A stretch of DNA of 64,000 nucleotides from positions 62,001-126,000 of the forward strand of contig JACREZ010000045.1 of the NCBI GenBank assembly GCA_016212665.1, in the 5' to 3' direction. This document shows, in pieces, positions 8,100 through 55,580 of the stretch. A program made the translations under genes and the position numbers. Source of the stretch: Ignavibacteriota bacterium (GTDB taxonomy: Bacteria > Bacteroidota > Ignavibacteria > UBA10030 > SZUA-254). The first letter of the stretch is position 1. Every line of letters starts with the position of its first letter. The notes beneath the pieces are model-generated. The model did not search any database and had not been told where the DNA came from. It saw only the letters and a program-made list of their open reading frames with translations.

Positions 8100-8894
8100 A
8101 TGAATCTCATCCTCAAACCCATCGGCATCATCCACACGCCGTACAAAGATAAATTCCTGACTCCGCGACAACCGGGAATGGATGAACAACAGGTCGAAGG
8201 TATCATCGAACTCTTTCCTCACCAAAACTTTGAGCAGGCGCTTGAAGACCTTTCCGGCTTTGAACGGATTTGGATTCTCTATTGGTTTCACAAGAACGAA
8301 GATTGGAAACCGAAAGTGCTTCCACCAAGGAGCGGGAAGAAAAAGCGGGGAGTCTTCTCCACTCGCTCTCCGCATCGTCCTAATCCAGTCGGACTTTCTC
8401 TCTGCACATTGTTAGAAATAAACGGACTCACACTCCGCGTTGCCAATCCTGACTTGCTTGATGGAACTCCCATCCTCGACATCAAACCGTACATTCCATA
8501 CGCTGATGCCTTTCCTAATTCCCGTGCAGGTTGGCTCGATGAAGTATCGAAGAAAATAATTGATTATCAAGTAAAATGTAGTTCTCTTGTCAAAGCACAA
8601 GCAGATTGGCTCGAATCGAACTACAACATTTCCTTACTTCCTCAAGCGAGTAAAACACTTTCGCTCGATCCTCTCCCTCATTCGTTTCGTCGGACAAAGC
8701 AACGTGCGGACGGAACTTTAGTTCTTGCAATAAAATCATGGAGAGTTTGCTACACAGTGAATGAGAATATCGTCACCATCGAAAGAATTGAAAGCGGATA
8801 TTCTCTATCGAAACTCATTCAATCAAAGAAAGAGAAAACACCGTTGCATGATGAACAGGCGCATCGGGCATTTCATAAATTGGTGAGTGGATAA
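8100..8894 (+). CDS. trmO: tRNA (N6-threonylcarbamoyladenosine-37-N6)-methyltransferase TrmO
   Basis: The product methylates t6A37 of tRNA-Thr using S-adenosylmethionine. The UPF0066 barrel (about 1-140) shows IGIIHTPYKDKFLTPRQPG, LEDLSGFERIWILYWFH, FSTRSPHRPNPVGLSLC and DGTPILDIKPYIPYAD. A C-terminal domain (about 145-264) resembling that of E. coli TrmO follows and contains LDPLPHSFRRTKQRADGT. At 264 residues it is slightly longer than the E. coli enzyme. No partner gene is adjacent. Confidence 0.93.
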   Translation: MNLILKPIGIIHTPYKDKFLTPRQPGMDEQQVEGIIELFPHQNFEQALEDLSGFERIWILYWFHKNEDWKPKVLPPRSGKKKRGVFSTRSPHRPNPVGLSLCTLLEINGLTLRVANPDLLDGTPILDIKPYIPYADAFPNSRAGWLDEVSKKIIDYQVKCSSLVKAQADWLESNYNISLLPQASKTLSLDPLPHSFRRTKQRADGTLVLAIKSWRVCYTVNENIVTIERIESGYSLSKLIQSKKEKTPLHDEQAHRAFHKLVSG

Positions 8895-8980
8895 TTGGTG
8901 AGTGGTTAGTGGTTAGTTGTTAGTTGTCATTAGTCATTCGTCATTGGGAACTCGACTCCACAACTCCAATACTCCAAATA
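8895..8980. repeat. STRR-like heptanucleotide array followed by octanucleotide array
   Basis: From about 8895 to 8947 the sequence parses into 7-bp units: TTAGTGG, TTAGTTG, TTAGTTG, TCATTAG, TCATTCG, TCATTGG. From 8955 to 8978 it parses into 8-bp units ACTCCACA, ACTCCAAT, ACTCCAAA. No gene is present in this spacer. The 15-mer at 8933-8947 recurs inverted inside a coding region at 34655-34669. Confidence 0.85.
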
Positions 8981-10569: not shown

Positions 10570-10905
10570 TCGAAGTCGTTTTCGTTTGCCTTGAAGTCAT
10601 TTTCGCTCGCCTTGAAGTCATTTTCGGTTGCCTTGAAGTCGTTTTCGCTCGCCTTGAAGTCGTTTTCGGTTGCCTTGAAGTCGTTTTCGCTTGCCTTGAA
10701 GTCGTTTTCGGTTGCCTTGAAGTCATTTTCGCTCGCCTTGAAGTCATTTTCGGTTGCCTTGAAGTCGTTTTCGCTTGCCTTGAAGTCGTTTTCGCTCGCC
10801 TTGAAGTCGTTTTCGCTCGCCTTGAAGTCGTTTTCGCTTGCCTTGAAGTCGTTTTCGCTTGCCTTGAAGTCGTTTTTGGTCGTATCAAAGTCGGTTTTTG
10901 TGATG
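10570..10905. repeat. 21-bp tandem repeat, 15 copies plus one degenerate
   Basis: The unit is TTGAAGTCGTTTTCGCTCGCC with variants at a few positions (CTC/GTT/CTT, TCG/TCA). Copies run in register from 10570 to 10884, and 10885-10905 is degenerate. In the first two thirds, two variants alternate (Leu/Val in one frame), a 42-bp higher-order period. Because 21 is a multiple of three, long open frames exist on both strands (heptads KSFSLAL on plus, KTTSRQA on minus). No spacers, so it is not a CRISPR array. Confidence 0.95.
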
Positions 10906-11941: not shown

Positions 11942-12036
11942 GATTTCGGATTTCGGATTTCGGACTTCGGATTTCGGACTTCGGATTGCGGATTGCGGAT
12001 TTCGGACTTCGGACTTCGGATTGCGGATTGCGGATT
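11942..12036. repeat. Heptanucleotide array GGATTTC / GGACTTC / GGATTGC, about 13 units
   Basis: Directly behind the stop codon at 11938, 7-bp units of three interchanging types run in register. A related five-unit array lies inside the M24 peptidase gene (21042-21076). Confidence 0.93.
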
Positions 12037-15004: not shown

Positions 15005-15163
15005 TGGAGTATTGGAGTGTTGGAGTGATGGAGTTCTGGAGTTCTGGAGTTTTGGAGTAATGGAGTTTTGGAGTGATGGAGTTTGGGAGTGATGGAGTTT
15101 GGGAGTTATGGAGTTTGGGAGTGATGGAGTTTTGGAGTGATGGAGTTTTGGAGTGATGGAGTA
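15005..15163. repeat. Octanucleotide array TGGAGTNN, about 19 units
   Basis: TGGAGT recurs every 8 (sometimes 7 or 9) bp over about 160 bp, with variable last two bases. No gene lies between 14968 and 15296. Shorter inverted relatives (ACTCCANN) stand at 8955-8978 and 60893-60925. Confidence 0.93.
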
Positions 15164-19440: not shown

Positions 19441-19470
19441 TGTAACTTTTCACTTTTAACTTTTCACTCA
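19441..19470. repeat. Heptanucleotide array ACTTTTC / ACTTTTA
   Basis: Three to four 7-bp units (ACTTTTC, ACTTTTA, ACTTTTC, ACTCAAG) run across the MFP stop region and the spacer to the ATPase start. Confidence 0.75.
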
Positions 19471-20387
19471 AGCGTAGCATCCGCAGGCATTCCCGGCTTC
19501 AACGTCAATTCAGGATTCGGGATTTCAATTTTCACTCCAAAAACAAGTTTCGTTCTGTCATCTTTCGTTTGAATATTTTTCGGTGTGAACTCGGCAATGG
19601 GAGAAATGTAAGTGACCGTCCCATCGAACGATTTATTCTCGAATGCATCAATCTGCACTTTTGCTGACTGTCCGATTTTTACGTTCGCAAGTTCGACTTC
19701 TGTTACATAAATCATCAAATGAACGTTCTCAAGTTGAGCAAGCCGGAACAACGCCCCACCGGGAGATATATTTTCTCCTTCCTGCATAATTTTCTGTGTG
19801 ATGATTCCATCACATGGAGAAACAATCGTCGCATCTGATATTTTCTTTTTGATTGCGTCAACTGCGGCGCGGGCTTGGTCACGACGTGCCATTGCTGTTT
19901 CAATTTCTTCCGAGCGAGCGCCACGTTTTAGTTTCTCATACGTTTGTTCGGCAACAACAAGCCGCATCTTCACATCATCGAACTGTTTTTGTGTCGCGCT
20001 TTTCTGCTTGAACAAATCTTCAACACGTGTGTAATCGCTTTTTGCATTTTGGAGATTCGCTTCTGCTTGAAGTAAATCTTCCTGCCTCGCCCCTTTGACA
20101 ATCAAACGATATTGCGCTTCTGCCGCAAGCGCGTTTGCTTCCGCTTGACGTAATTCAATATCAGCAAATTCATGATTGATGAACGCGAGCGTATCTCCTG
20201 CTTTGATGTTTGTGCCTTCATCAACAAGCAATCGCTTAATCTCTCCTGCAGCCTTTGCACTGATTGTTACCTGCGTTGCTTCAATAGTACCGGAGGCGGA
20301 AATTGATTTCGATTCTTCGGTTGAACAACCAACTAAGTACAAAGTACAGAGTACAAAGTACAAAGTACAAAAGTACGCTTGCTTCAT
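19464..20387 (-). CDS. HlyD-family periplasmic adaptor lipoprotein of the ABC exporter
   Basis: The protein has 307 residues from ATG 20387 (TTG 20393 is an alternative). The leader MKQAYFCTLYFVLCTLYLVG ends in the lipobox L-V-G-C, so it should be a lipoprotein. Then comes the barrel-sandwich half-motif (ATQVTISAKAAGEIKRLLVD), a long coiled-coil hairpin (about 80-180), and the second half DATIVSPCDGIITQKIMQEG. It resembles YbhG. The leader is encoded by a 7-bp tandem repeat (20334-20376), so changes in unit number would break the frame. The gene starts 7 bp after the peptidase stop. Confidence 0.92.
   Translation of the reverse strand: MKQAYFCTLYFVLCTLYLVGCSTEESKSISASGTIEATQVTISAKAAGEIKRLLVDEGTNIKAGDTLAFINHEFADIELRQAEANALAAEAQYRLIVKGARQEDLLQAEANLQNAKSDYTRVEDLFKQKSATQKQFDDVKMRLVVAEQTYEKLKRGARSEEIETAMARRDQARAAVDAIKKKISDATIVSPCDGIITQKIMQEGENISPGGALFRLAQLENVHLMIYVTEVELANVKIGQSAKVQIDAFENKSFDGTVTYISPIAEFTPKNIQTKDDRTKLVFGVKIEIPNPELTLKPGMPADATLE
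20334..20376. repeat. Heptanucleotide array AAAGTAC, six units, inside the MFP leader
   Basis: Units read TAAGTAC, AAAGTAC, AGAGTAC, AAAGTAC, AAAGTAC and AAAAGTAC (one extra A). On the coding strand this is TTTGTAC repeated and gives the heptapeptide theme CTLYFVL. Confidence 0.9.
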
Positions 20388-20394
20388 TATCAAC

Positions 20395-21612
20395 TCACTT
20401 CAATATTGCAACAACTTCCCGCTGTCTTGGTTCACCCGGCACAATCACTTTTTTATCTTTTGAAATATAGACATTGATTTCACTCCTGATTCCGAAATCG
20501 CCCATGAAGTAAATTCCCGGCTCGATGGAAAAGGAAGTTTCGGGAATAATCGTTCGTTCATCTTTCGTTTCGAGATTATCCATGTTCGCACCGCTTCCGT
20601 GCAAATCTTCTGTGATGGAGTGTCCCGTACGATGAATGAAGAATTCACCGTATCCATGTTTGACAATATGATTTCTCGATGCATCATCAACATCGCAGCC
20701 ACGCACCTGTTTCCCTTCAGCAAACGATTTTGTAAGAAAATCAACCGCCGCATCCCGCGCATCTCTCACGATGTTGAATATCTTCGTGTATTTCTCCGGC
20801 ACTTCCTTTCCGAGAAAACCAACCCACGTAATGTCATTGTACGTTGAGCCCGGTTTATTTTTTTTCGCCCATAAATCAATGAGGACAAAATCTCCTTCGT
20901 GCAATTCCGAATGGACATCCTTCGTTGGTTCGTAGTGTGGATTGCCGCTGTTCGCATTCACTGAACAATTCGGCGCTTCCATCGTTGTTAATCCGTTTGC
21001 TGTGAATTGTTGAACCATGAACTGCTGAACATCAAACTCCGTGATTTTGGATTTCGGATTTTGGATTTCGGATTTCATAAAGGCAAATGTTTTGTCAACA
21101 ATTCCTCTCATGATGTTGGCAGTTTCAAGATTGTCCTGATATGCTTCTTCGCTCCAACGAGATTCAAACCACTGCGTCAGGTTCATGGAAGAGACAACAT
21201 TCACTCCTGTTCGCTTGACCATCTCGATTGTTCCAGCATCAACTTTTGAGATGTATGGAATTGCATTGTTGGGTGAATACTCCATCGCTACGGTTTTCAT
21301 TCCGGCAAGGATATTTTTCAGTCCCTCTTCAAGCGATTGCCAACTGAGAAAAATTGTTTTCTCCCCAGGGCAATGGTCAATGTTCCATCGCTCGATACTA
21401 TGAACAAGTTTCTGTGGCTCGCCTTGAGCAGGAATCAAATAGAAAAATCTTCTCGTGTTGAGAATGTGTTTGGGATATTCAAGGATGCGCTGAGCATATT
21501 CATTCCGTTTCCAGAAATCATAGAAGAGCCAACCGTCAATGTTTTGTTCCTGTAAAGCCTGTTGGATTTTTTTGACTTTGTCAATCATTGGTTGAGAGGG
21601 TGTAGTTTGCAT
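20395..21612 (-). CDS. M24-family metallopeptidase (Xaa-Pro aminopeptidase-like)
   Basis: The 405 residues begin at ATG 21612. The N-terminal creatinase-like domain (about 1-150) is followed by the pita-bread catalytic domain. The dinuclear metal ligands are present: D246 (LIDLWAK), D260 (TYNDITW), H331 (HRTGHSI), E364 (FSIEPGIY) and E379 (RSEINVY). This points to an active aminopeptidase for Xaa-Pro or related dipeptides. Residues about 180-191 (KSEIQNPKSKI) are encoded by a 7-bp tandem DNA repeat and look like an insertion in a surface loop at the start of the catalytic domain. The exporter operon follows 7 bp after the stop. Confidence 0.93.
   Translation of the reverse strand: MQTTPSQPMIDKVKKIQQALQEQNIDGWLFYDFWKRNEYAQRILEYPKHILNTRRFFYLIPAQGEPQKLVHSIERWNIDHCPGEKTIFLSWQSLEEGLKNILAGMKTVAMEYSPNNAIPYISKVDAGTIEMVKRTGVNVVSSMNLTQWFESRWSEEAYQDNLETANIMRGIVDKTFAFMKSEIQNPKSKITEFDVQQFMVQQFTANGLTTMEAPNCSVNANSGNPHYEPTKDVHSELHEGDFVLIDLWAKKNKPGSTYNDITWVGFLGKEVPEKYTKIFNIVRDARDAAVDFLTKSFAEGKQVRGCDVDDASRNHIVKHGYGEFFIHRTGHSITEDLHGSGANMDNLETKDERTIIPETSFSIEPGIYFMGDFGIRSEINVYISKDKKVIVPGEPRQREVVAILK
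21042..21076. repeat. Heptanucleotide array GGATTTT / GGATTTC inside the peptidase gene
   Basis: Five 7-bp units in register (35 bp) encode an inserted hydrophilic loop. Confidence 0.88.
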
Positions 21613-33015: not shown

Positions 33016-34704
33016 TTAAAAATCTACACGGAGAGCAATGCCAAAATCGCGGTCAAGCGTGGAGAGATTGTTTGAAAAATCATTTCGTTTGATGAACTGA
33101 TATCGTGCATCAAAAAATACCTCGTTTACAATTTCGTAGGTGATGAACGCCTGACCAACGTAAGTGTTGATGCGATTGCCAGCCAGAAATTCCTGCTCTT
33201 GCGGGTCCGTATCTCGATGTGGAATAAGAAAGTTTCCACCGACATTTTGAATCAAGATTTCATGTGAATCGAAAACATTTTCGCCTTCTCTCTGCATTTC
33301 GAATCGAAGTGATGTTGAGAGGCGATGCGTCGGTTGATAATCAAACTTGAAGAACCAACTATCGGAGTTCGGTCCGATGTGGTGGCTCATAATTCTGCCG
33401 AGACTTCCATAGTCATTATCTCTGGAACGATTGTGAGAGAAGATGTATGGCTCGGCACGTGTGTATTCGATGGCGAGTGAAGTATTGTCAACATTGAATG
33501 GGTCAACAACCATTGCTCCGAGTTGATAGGCAAATTTATTTTGCACGGAACTTGTTCCCCACTTCGGAAAATTAATATCGTCGAAAACTATTGATGCATG
33601 AATCTCCGTATTGTTAATGAAGTGAGTTTTCGCATCGAATGACCAAAGCACGTTGTCTCGTTCTTCCCGTGAACGCTGTGCTGATTCAATAAATGTTACA
33701 GGATTCAAGTACGCAAGGTCAGGAGAACGATTACTGTAAATAACCATCTCCTGAAAACCAAGTGCAAGTTTGGATGAGAAAGCAAACTCGAAACGGTGCG
33801 CACCGAAATATTTATCTGCAAGTACCGGTTCAGAAAAAGTATTATCATAGCGATGAAAGGTCGTCATAGTCTTCTGTCCCATCAACCATGCATGAAGAAA
33901 TGTATATTTGAATGATTTGTACTCAATATCCGCACGAATGAAATCGTATAATCGTACATTATCGGAAAGAATCATCTTATCGCCGTAGCCGTTGCCCCAC
34001 AACAATCGCTCACGTCCAATTTGCGCTGAGACTATTCCGCTCGCGTATCGAGCGTAGCCTTCGACAAAGTCAAAGTTCTGTGCATCGGTAATTCCCAGTG
34101 TATATGCCTGACTGATTTGTTTGTCCCTTCTCAAGACATCACGGCTTCCCCAGAACTGTGCATTCGTTACTTGAAGATAGAAGCCGAGTTTGTCATAGAT
34201 TGTTCCACGAACTCTTCCACCAAATTGGAGAAACTCCGAGTGTTGCTTTCCGAGTGCATCCCCTTCACTTCGCAGTGCATCGAATGTTAGCAATCCATCA
34301 ACAAAGAGATTAACAACAGAATCGTTGTAAGAGTACAAATACTTTTCGGCTTCGTTGAACCTTTCTCCCTCAATCCACTGCACGCCGTTTGTATCAATCA
34401 ATGAATACGACTTATCAAAACTTTGAGAAATATCGAACTGAAATTCAGTAATAAAATCCTCCAGTTGCAATCTCTCAGTTTCCGTGAGATAAGATTGCTT
34501 ATCAATTAATTGTTGAAGGAAGATTGCCACTTGATTTCGAGATAGTGGTAAAATTGCATCACGATACTTTTCGATTACACCCTTCACTTCCATCCGCTTC
34601 AAAAAATAATAGACAGGATTACTCACCGGAACATTCTCCACCTGCGCATCAACACCAATGACGAATGACAAATAACAAATGACAATAAATAAATATTTCT
34701 TCAC
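33016..34704 (-). CDS. Wzi-like capsule assembly outer-membrane protein
   Basis: The protein has 562 residues from GTG 34704; the frame further upstream overlaps the DUF2279 gene. The signal peptide MKKYLFIVICYLSFVIGVDA is encoded by a 7-bp tandem repeat. The mature part has the Wzi opening (PVSNPVYYFLKRMEVKGVIE), a helical bundle, then many alternating beta strands ending in Phe (IALRVDF), typical of an outer-membrane barrel; the segment RVRGTIYDKLGFYLQVTNAQ is characteristic. It probably binds surface polysaccharide; UDP-sugar genes lie just upstream. Confidence 0.85.
   Translation of the reverse strand: MKKYLFIVICYLSFVIGVDAQVENVPVSNPVYYFLKRMEVKGVIEKYRDAILPLSRNQVAIFLQQLIDKQSYLTETERLQLEDFITEFQFDISQSFDKSYSLIDTNGVQWIEGERFNEAEKYLYSYNDSVVNLFVDGLLTFDALRSEGDALGKQHSEFLQFGGRVRGTIYDKLGFYLQVTNAQFWGSRDVLRRDKQISQAYTLGITDAQNFDFVEGYARYASGIVSAQIGRERLLWGNGYGDKMILSDNVRLYDFIRADIEYKSFKYTFLHAWLMGQKTMTTFHRYDNTFSEPVLADKYFGAHRFEFAFSSKLALGFQEMVIYSNRSPDLAYLNPVTFIESAQRSREERDNVLWSFDAKTHFINNTEIHASIVFDDINFPKWGTSSVQNKFAYQLGAMVVDPFNVDNTSLAIEYTRAEPYIFSHNRSRDNDYGSLGRIMSHHIGPNSDSWFFKFDYQPTHRLSTSLRFEMQREGENVFDSHEILIQNVGGNFLIPHRDTDPQEQEFLAGNRINTYVGQAFITYEIVNEVFFDARYQFIKRNDFSNNLSTLDRDFGIALRVDF
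34657..34690. repeat. Heptanucleotide array AATGACA, four units, inside the Wzi leader
   Basis: Units AATGACG, AATGACA, AATAACA, AATGACA are followed by ATAAATA. The coding strand TGTCATT encodes the hydrophobic leader. The adjoining 15-mer at 34655-34669 is the exact inverse of 8933-8947. Confidence 0.92.
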
Positions 34705-34712
34705 AGCTATTC

Positions 34713-35732
34713 TTAGAAGTAAAGTCCGTACCAAATCGCAGAAGGAGAAATGCGTACCGCCGGCATCGGTAAATGGAAATAGTTCAACGATTCGCTGAGT
34801 GTTTTCATCCACGGAACATCTTGCGGTAATATTTTCGTCATGTCAACATCGAGTGCGAGAAACCAAACCGGATACGGTTCGTTCGTCGTGCCGACAATAT
34901 CTCGTGCGCCGTAGCCAACAGCAAGACAAAGAAACTCAGGCATAATATTTTTTATCGGTTCAGGTGTGATTGTTTTGAAATGCGTCGTCAGCCAGAATGT
35001 TTGTCCTTCGTAATCATCCATGAGGAGATGTTGTTGACCTTGAAAACCTGTTCCGCCGGGACGATTGAGTAGATCAGACGGAAGATAACTGAATTTCAAA
35101 TCGAAATTATCGAGCACCGGAACATGATGTTGAGCGAGGGGCCAGGCGGCTCCGGCAACATCCATTGCAAAATCTACGCGGTCAAATCCCCACGTGGAAA
35201 ATCCATCTTCAACTTCAAGAAATGTTTGGAACAACAAACTTCCACCCGCTCCGTACCAGAGCGATTGCTCTTCATCCACATTCGACCATTGCAACGATTG
35301 AGAGATAACATACGTCAACGCGGATGCGCCATGAAAATGTCCAATCTTATCCACGCCAAGACTGTATGATAAATCTTCCTGAAAATGAAACGAGGTTCGG
35401 TTATCCTTCCACCAACCATTTTGTTGGTAAATGTGAATCGCGGTCATTGAACCAACTAATGCGCCACTGACGAGAGAAAGGCGAGTGTAGTTGATTTCTT
35501 CGTTTACTGTATCAGTAAGTTTGTCGGTTAACAAAATAGATGTATTTGTAATAGCAGACGGAACAGATTCTTCATCCCGCTCTACGAGCCGTAGGCTAAA
35601 GCGGGATTCGTTCGGAATGACGCTGGTGTTGTTTATGGAAAAATGTTTTTCACGTTGGGCTAAACATGGTGAAGTGACAAACCAAGAACTACAAACCACA
35701 AACCACAAACCACAAACCATCAACCGAATCAT
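34713..35732 (-). CDS. DUF2279 (YfiM-like) exported protein
   Basis: The protein has 339 residues from ATG 35732 (GTG 35738 is an alternative). The leader MIRLMVCGLWFVVCSSWFV is encoded by a 7-bp repeat. Next comes a 19-residue stretch (V-I-P-N-E-S-R-F to E-E-S) encoded by a palindromic element at 35565-35621. The DUF2279 domain follows: QNGWWKDNRTSFHFQEDLSY, GVDKIGHFHGASALTYV and GFDRVDFAMDVAGAAWPLAQ. The product is probably a periplasmic or outer-membrane-associated protein of unknown role. It lies between the UDP-xylose synthase and Wzi-like genes. Confidence 0.85.
   Translation of the reverse strand: MIRLMVCGLWFVVCSSWFVTSPCLAQREKHFSINNTSVIPNESRFSLRLVERDEESVPSAITNTSILLTDKLTDTVNEEINYTRLSLVSGALVGSMTAIHIYQQNGWWKDNRTSFHFQEDLSYSLGVDKIGHFHGASALTYVISQSLQWSNVDEEQSLWYGAGGSLLFQTFLEVEDGFSTWGFDRVDFAMDVAGAAWPLAQHHVPVLDNFDLKFSYLPSDLLNRPGGTGFQGQQHLLMDDYEGQTFWLTTHFKTITPEPIKNIMPEFLCLAVGYGARDIVGTTNEPYPVWFLALDVDMTKILPQDVPWMKTLSESLNYFHLPMPAVRISPSAIWYGLYF
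35565..35621. repeat. In-frame palindromic dispersed element inside the DUF2279 gene
   Basis: It is 57 bp (19 codons). On the minus strand it begins GTCATTCCGAACGAATCCCG and ends GCGGGATGAAGAATCT, pairing CCCGC with GCGGG. Elements with this wording are normally intergenic (compare 38030-38098 and 15232-15265). Confidence 0.85.
35678..35719. repeat. Heptanucleotide array CAAACCA, six units, inside the DUF2279 leader
   Basis: Four perfect units (35692-35719) follow one perfect and one diverged unit, all in register. The coding strand TGGTTTG gives the Trp/Phe/Val/Cys-rich leader. Confidence 0.92.
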
Positions 35733-35743
35733 AAACACTTAGT

Positions 35744-55351: not shown

Positions 55352-55580
55352 TCCACCTCTGAGGTAGACTCGCTCTCCCAAAAGGTGTGTTATCTTACCT
55401 TTGAGGTCGGGTATCCTTCCTTTGAGGTCGGGTATCCTTCCTTTGAGGTCGGGTATCCTTCCTTTGAGGTCGGGTATCCTTCCTTTGAGGTCGGGTATCC
55501 TTCCTTTGAGGCCGGTTATCTTTCCTTTGAAGTGAATTTAAACTCCCTCGAAGTGCGTTGTCCAACTTTTTTTGGAAAAA
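55352..55580. repeat. 21-bp tandem repeat TTTGAGGTCGGGTATCCTTCC with degenerate flanks
   Basis: About five to six nearly identical units (about 55400-55520) stand between diverged units. On the plus strand the frame 55301-55624 reads heptads FEVGYPS, on the minus strand KDTRPQR. It shares TTGARGTCG with the 21-bp repeat at 10570, but in another reading frame. Whether any strand is translated is not clear. Confidence 0.9.

Follow-up and report, generated by a model that had tools for sequence, protein, structure and literature searches.

Heptanucleotide repeat arrays as a probable source of signal peptide and type IX sorting domain sequence in an Ignavibacteriota genome

Tandem arrays with a heptanucleotide unit occur in several bacterial groups, among them the short tandemly repeated repetitive (STRR) sequences of cyanobacteria, which the arrays considered here bring to mind. 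They have also been described as TAACTGA arrays in Beggiatoaceae (PMC4679880), as G-rich heptamers in Xanthomonas and Nostoc (PMC4692102), and among the long simple sequence repeats (SSRs) of Mrazek 2007, as described in PMC4679880. The present analysis began from a stretch of 64,000 nucleotides of an Ignavibacteriota bacterium (GCA_016212665.1, contig JACREZ010000045.1, positions 62,001 to 126,000), hereafter the window, in which the gene for a Wzi-like capsule assembly protein carries a 7-bp array within its predicted signal peptide. The reading that we favour, with a probability of about 0.75, is that a sequence-indifferent 7-bp repeat process supplies arrays throughout this genome, and that their hydrophobic T-rich frames are tolerated in genes of exported proteins and then kept as export signals.

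The Wzi-like gene (33016..34704, minus strand; PF14052, E = 1.3e-12, above the cut-off) starts with GTG at 34704 and opens with the predicted signal peptide MKKYLFIVICYLSFVIGVDA (34645..34704, minus strand), with putative cleavage before Q. A preliminary description of this DNA had reported a heptanucleotide repeat in the leader, and Tandem Repeats Finder (TRF) does detect a period-7 array at 34657..34685 (minus strand; unit AATGACA; lag-7 score 13), whose ATTTGTC and ATTCGTC units encode the leader core IVICYLSFVI; in the minus-strand reading, TTGTCATTTGTTATTTGTCATTCGTCATT, 19 of 22 positions match at lag 7. It had also drawn attention to a 15-base inverse match with the non-coding spacer after trmO. 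This match is exact (34655-34669 is the reverse complement of 8933-8947) but lies at chance level, as the window contains 10 inverted exact pairs of 15 bases, a number within the range of 0 to 11 obtained in eight simulations with a first-order Markov model, so that a single such match proves nothing alone. The family resemblance between the Wzi leader array and other repeats of the genome is real. With at most one mismatch, TTTGTCATTTGTCA matches at 70 places across the 3.9 Mb of the genome, whereas its reversed control matches at 6, and the spacer after trmO itself carries akin non-coding T-sense arrays of TGGTTAG and GTCATTA units, with TAG stops (8881..8945, plus strand).

Two further array-encoded leaders in the window had been overlooked. 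Directly upstream of the Wzi-like gene lies a DUF2279 gene (34713..35738, minus strand; PF10043, E = 1.2e-9), in which an array of TGGTTTG units detected by TRF (35687..35719, minus strand; 25 of 26 lag-7 matches) encodes the core of the predicted signal peptide MIRLMVCGLWFVVCSSWFVTSPCLA (35658..35732, minus strand; cleavage before Q). The other gene encodes a HlyD-type lipoprotein of the membrane-fusion protein family (19464..20387, minus strand; PF16576, E = 5.7e-27), whose leader, MKQAYFCTLYFVLCTLYLVG before C, has its core FCTLYFVLCTLYL encoded by an array of TTTGTAC units (20335..20371, minus strand; TRF; 28 of 30 lag-7 matches). As expected of Sec leaders, MKKYLFIVICYLSFVIGVDA, MIRLMVCGLWFVVCSSWFVTSPCLA and MKQAYFCTLYFVLCTLYLVG each combine a positive start, a hydrophobic core and a cleavage or lipobox site ahead of the mature protein, and leaders occupy the corresponding position in orthologues; all three probably act as export signals.

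Beyond the window, arrays were called by a lag-7 self-match score, with other lags as the control; several of those in the window were also called by TRF. The discovery set consisted of 40 stretches (796 kb) and the window, 860 kb in all, and a hold-out set of 20 further stretches (400 kb) extended the sample to 1.26 Mb of the genome, to which the counts below refer unless a set is named. In the discovery set, 131-132 arrays were found at lag 7, compared with about 2-9 at lags 5, 6, 9, 10, 11 and 13. Arrays of period 8 are likewise in mild excess, numbering 26-27 compared with about 5, with an example at 15005-15162 of the window. The 179 arrays of the full sample, 123 of them non-coding, comprise 88 different units, indicating a fixed period with a variable sequence. 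The TTTGTCA unit is lineage-bound, as an exact three-copy TTTGTCA is present in only 2 of 296 genomes of the phylum.

Array density is 0.65 per kb in signal peptides, 0.63 in non-coding DNA and 0.024 in other coding sequence, about 27-fold below the signal peptides; the first 30 codons of non-secreted genes have 0.095 per kb. The excess of signal peptides over other coding sequence was found in the discovery set with the Wzi array excluded (p = 2.6e-7) and again in the hold-out set (p = 4.7e-4), and the density result is stable to the caller threshold and to non-ATG starts. Random placement of arrays gave the same picture, with 9 overlaps between arrays and leaders observed against 1.8 expected in the discovery set (reached in none of 5000 placements) and 3 against 0.8 in the hold-out set (222 of 5000 placements). 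Several array-leader genes match Pfam families usual among exported proteins, namely S9 and M28 peptidases, GH57 and HlyD. T-rich leader DNA could be simple enough to seem 7-periodic by chance, and the self-match of signal-peptide DNA is indeed slightly raised at all lags, with one case resembling poly-T (L031:2896). However, signal peptides contain 11 arrays at lag 7 and only 3 for eleven control lags pooled, and in type IX C-terminal sorting domains the corresponding numbers are 16 and 0. The control lags refute chance for the array set as a whole, making it an extremely improbable explanation, although single weak cases may have arisen in this way. Because leaders have the density of non-coding DNA, it would be tolerance followed by retention, rather than targeting, that accounts for the arrays within them.

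The orientation of the arrays points in the same direction. As seven leaves a remainder of one when divided by three, translation of an array within a gene passes through the three frames in turn, and the encoded peptide depends only on the strand and the unit. By calculation, T-rich strands tend to give hydrophobic heptapeptides and A-rich strands hydrophilic ones; in the window, an A-sense array of AAATCCG units within a 397-aa protein (21043..21076, minus strand; lag-7 scan) encodes the hydrophilic SEIQNPKSKI. Among signal-peptide arrays, 10 of 11 are T-sense, compared with 6 of the 29 in other parts of genes (p = 8.5e-5). The T-rich strand had been described as hydrophobic in any frame, which is too broad, as only 36 of 123 non-coding arrays are free of stops in all frames of that strand; within signal peptides the proportion is 8 of 11 (Fisher p = 0.006). 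A-sense AAATGAC arrays also reach gene starts (L011:8670, L023:5051, L023:11384, L037:13174 and L039:3991), where they seem to supply the ATG and yield N-termini such as MTND or MTK.

Comparison with relatives indicates that these leaders turn over. Wzi homologues keep the mature start Q-x-EN behind leaders that are unrelated in sequence, and the Wzi leader array is absent from all of the relatives' homologues examined; a different heptamer, similar to GATTTTA, is found where the leader begins or shortly before it in a few distant homologues (L075, L078). DUF2279 orthologues, including that of the same-genus genome G001, likewise have leaders, with no array upstream of the conserved part at the loci examined. 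For both genes, the array-free relatives thus have signal peptides at the same place without shared leader DNA. Together with the overlap above chance, and on the samples studied, this supports the earlier proposal that a repeat has been taken over as a hydrophobic leader. Two of the three window arrays were not seen in any relative examined. The third has a counterpart in the HlyD orthologue of the same-genus genome G002 (80% identity), where a leader of equal length contains a decayed TTTGTAC array (23 of 41 lag-7 matches, reached by none of 10000 shuffles), and no TTTGTAC array was found among the more distant orthologues examined. The HlyD array thus predates the divergence from G002, and the present genome has the purer copy.

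Leader arrays might instead be kept for phase variation, in which gain or loss of one unit shifts the frame and switches a surface protein off or on, as reported for the HMW1A heptanucleotide repeats of Haemophilus influenzae (PMC8262952). One unit more or less would end all three window proteins prematurely within 15-37 codons, and two of the three window arrays are nearly perfect. However, the length of the HlyD leader has not changed between the two genomes compared at this one locus, with the array decayed in one of them, and the Wzi array is imperfect. Furthermore, the arrays are just as dense in non-coding DNA and occur in genes that are not of the switch type (ValS, IleS-like and TsaD-like), and phase variation is accordingly improbable as the reason for their presence. 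The arrays inside conserved enzyme genes are in frame and often T-sense followed by A-sense (L035:6832-6901, in ValS; L021:7685-7765; L093:18271-18446; L041:4516-4550; L023:15855-15881). From their N-terminal sequences, we take the enzymes to be ValS and IleS-like, GatB-like and TsaD-like proteins. One ValS loop carries heptamers that differ between the present genome, G002 (about 90% identical) and G003, and that are lacking from the other relatives examined, a case of unit turnover at a single loop across three lineages.

Type IX sorting domains are a second place in which arrays accumulate. Among 38 genes ending in an NPFNP-type domain, 14 have an array (score of at least 10), mostly 9-12 residues after NYPNPFNP, with different heptamers in one register. 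The units are at least four, ATTTCGG (NFGFRI), CAGTTAT (VISYQL), CAATTAT (IINYQLSI) and TTGTCAT (LSFVIGQS), at loci that include L010:10513, L011:6565, L015:15237, L044:8097, L085, L087, L094 and L097, and four array-bearing tails match TIGR04183 at 33.9-46.1 bits (cut-off 23). The density of 1.43 per kb is far above that of other coding sequence in the hold-out set (p = 1.8e-11) and there exceeds that of non-coding DNA as well (p = 0.008), so that more than tolerance may act, such as the spread of array-bearing tails or selection. Where two domains share a unit, similarity is often higher within the array (0.94-1.00) than in the flanking sequence (0.67-0.77), whereas the L015/L044 pair has similar flanks (0.76) and different units (0.53 inside). 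Some members of the ATTTCGG group may be related by descent, and the 16 arrays are therefore not 16 independent events. The array probably encodes the first beta strand of the sorting domain, and the accumulation of arrays suggests that one strand of this domain is as permissive as an N-terminal leader. None of 17 type IX domains in the first relatives sampled had an array (p = 0.003), the samples of G022 and G009 being small.

A second genome, G016, from another family of the same order, has one type IX domain in which the rule applied above finds an array, and another in which an array is visible on inspection. Its densities agree with the pattern above, with 0.865 arrays per kb in signal peptides, 0.496 in non-coding DNA and 0.027 in other coding sequence (p = 5e-5). 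A GTCATTG array yields the leader of one of its Wzi homologues. When this gene is compared with the Wzi gene of G021 (54% protein identity), a genome of the same genus, the DNA on either side of the leader can be aligned and that of the leader itself cannot. At L239:12184, L247:11000, L252:18630 and L257:4372, inverted heptamer arrays with a start codon encode the n-region and core of leaders, with L239 offering only a candidate start. Three of these G016 leaders are inverted array pairs with hairpin energies of -30.6, -29.1 and -24.0 kcal/mol, compared with -15.2, -17.2 and -13.5 kcal/mol after shuffling. In these leaders the first arm, A-sense, gives the ATG and an n-region of the form M(T/S)N(D/N)K, and the second, T-sense, gives the core; such hairpin arrays form most of the leader in a Wzi homologue and in a probable lipoprotein. 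The hairpin centre pattern has 16 matches in G016, which represent fewer sites because the pattern is palindromic, and none in the reversed control. Hairpins so far below the shuffled energy favour the idea that the arrays are DNA or RNA signals near gene starts, serving translation control or folding into hairpins, with the encoded leader as a by-product. On the other hand, 88 different units imply no common site, the type IX arrays lie at the 3' end of genes, and leader arrays are nearly all T-sense and enriched in stop-free units, which would be needless for an untranslated signal, making this explanation unlikely.

The favoured reading, supply by a 7-bp repeat process followed by tolerance and retention, can be stated as a series of steps. 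Besides a start and a positive end, a Sec leader requires a hydrophobic core but no particular sequence. A T-sense array that has no stop in the frame used would thus be tolerated there as if it were non-coding, because hydrophobicity rather than sequence is needed. Generation of 7-bp repeats would yield arrays from many starting words, consistent with the many units observed. Replication slippage, a process known from the literature, would be the simplest source of the 7-bp step; the idea of a 7-nt polymerase is reported from Mrazek 2007 in PMC4679880. At the 5' end of a gene for an exported protein, a T-sense array can replace or become the leader, as the densities and the replaced leaders of orthologues show, probably with an export function, and the putative first strand of the type IX domain, where density and register are the evidence, may accept arrays likewise. 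Afterwards the arrays would decay by point mutation or become homogeneous again, as one orthologue pair suggests. A further reading, which we consider doubtful though conceivable, is that heptamer arrays, inverted pairs included, are spreading as ready-made export-signal modules, so that repeat DNA would provide this lineage with fresh sorting signals for both ends of its proteins.

Several points weigh against the favoured reading. Leaders were called by a simple home-made rule in place of SignalP, genes by a home-made caller, and the genomes are draft assemblies. The approach has an element of circularity, as an array with a hydrophobic reading helps to create its own leader call; the unrelated leaders of orthologues reduce this circularity and do not abolish it. 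Cases are few, at 11 arrays in 248 signal peptides, and the hold-out overlap consists of 3 arrays, one of them A-sense and doubtful, for which uniform placement alone gives p = 0.044. No array turned up in the signal peptides of G022 (3.4 kb) and G009 (3.7 kb), an under-powered sample that nonetheless lends no support, and G016 was picked for its many TTTGTCA repeats. If the reading holds, mutation supplies hydrophobic and largely frame-indifferent coding material, providing a concrete route to new signal peptides and sorting domains, and export signals are coding places loose enough for repeat DNA. Natural genomes would then allow the origin and turnover of signal peptides to be measured, and leader predictions and start-site calls from genomes of this type should be treated with caution, given their dependence on repeat DNA.

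Other repeats in the window include GATTTCG units in an array that shows a higher-order repeat of 35 bp (11942-12036) and 21-bp tandem repeats of 14.5 and 6.7 copies (10572-10876 and 55391-55530, respectively), 21 being a multiple of both 7 and 3.

Repeat DNA within coding sequence is familiar from the Rickettsia palindromic elements, small palindromic repeats that are inserted in genes. Other coding insertions include palindromic amphipathic repeats (PMC2996958) and miniature inverted-repeat transposable elements (MITEs; PMC10969869). The present arrays appear similar in placing repeat DNA in frame in conserved genes, often as inverted pairs (in ValS, IleS-like and TsaD-like genes here), and differ in having no fixed sequence or ends and in the change of unit between lineages at the same site. 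With the phase-variable tracts of the Haemophilus type they share a unit that is not a multiple of three and a position near the start of exported proteins, although some are imperfect, one orthologue has a leader of the same length, and there is no sign of selection for switching. Heptamer arrays as such are already known in bacteria, but their use in export signals was found in no paper: PMC4679880 and PMC4692102 do not mention the term signal peptide, and a literature search that covered few subscription papers found neither signal peptides nor type IX domains described as derived from heptanucleotide arrays. Common to the known bacterial repeats and those described here are the period of 7, the mainly intergenic location, the few copies per array and the scatter over the genome, and the CAGTTAT units of the present genome are the complement of the Beggiatoaceae TAACTGA. 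Unlike the known heptanucleotide repeats, however, the arrays of this genome share one period among 88 units, and are as dense in leaders as in spacers and denser still in type IX sorting domains.
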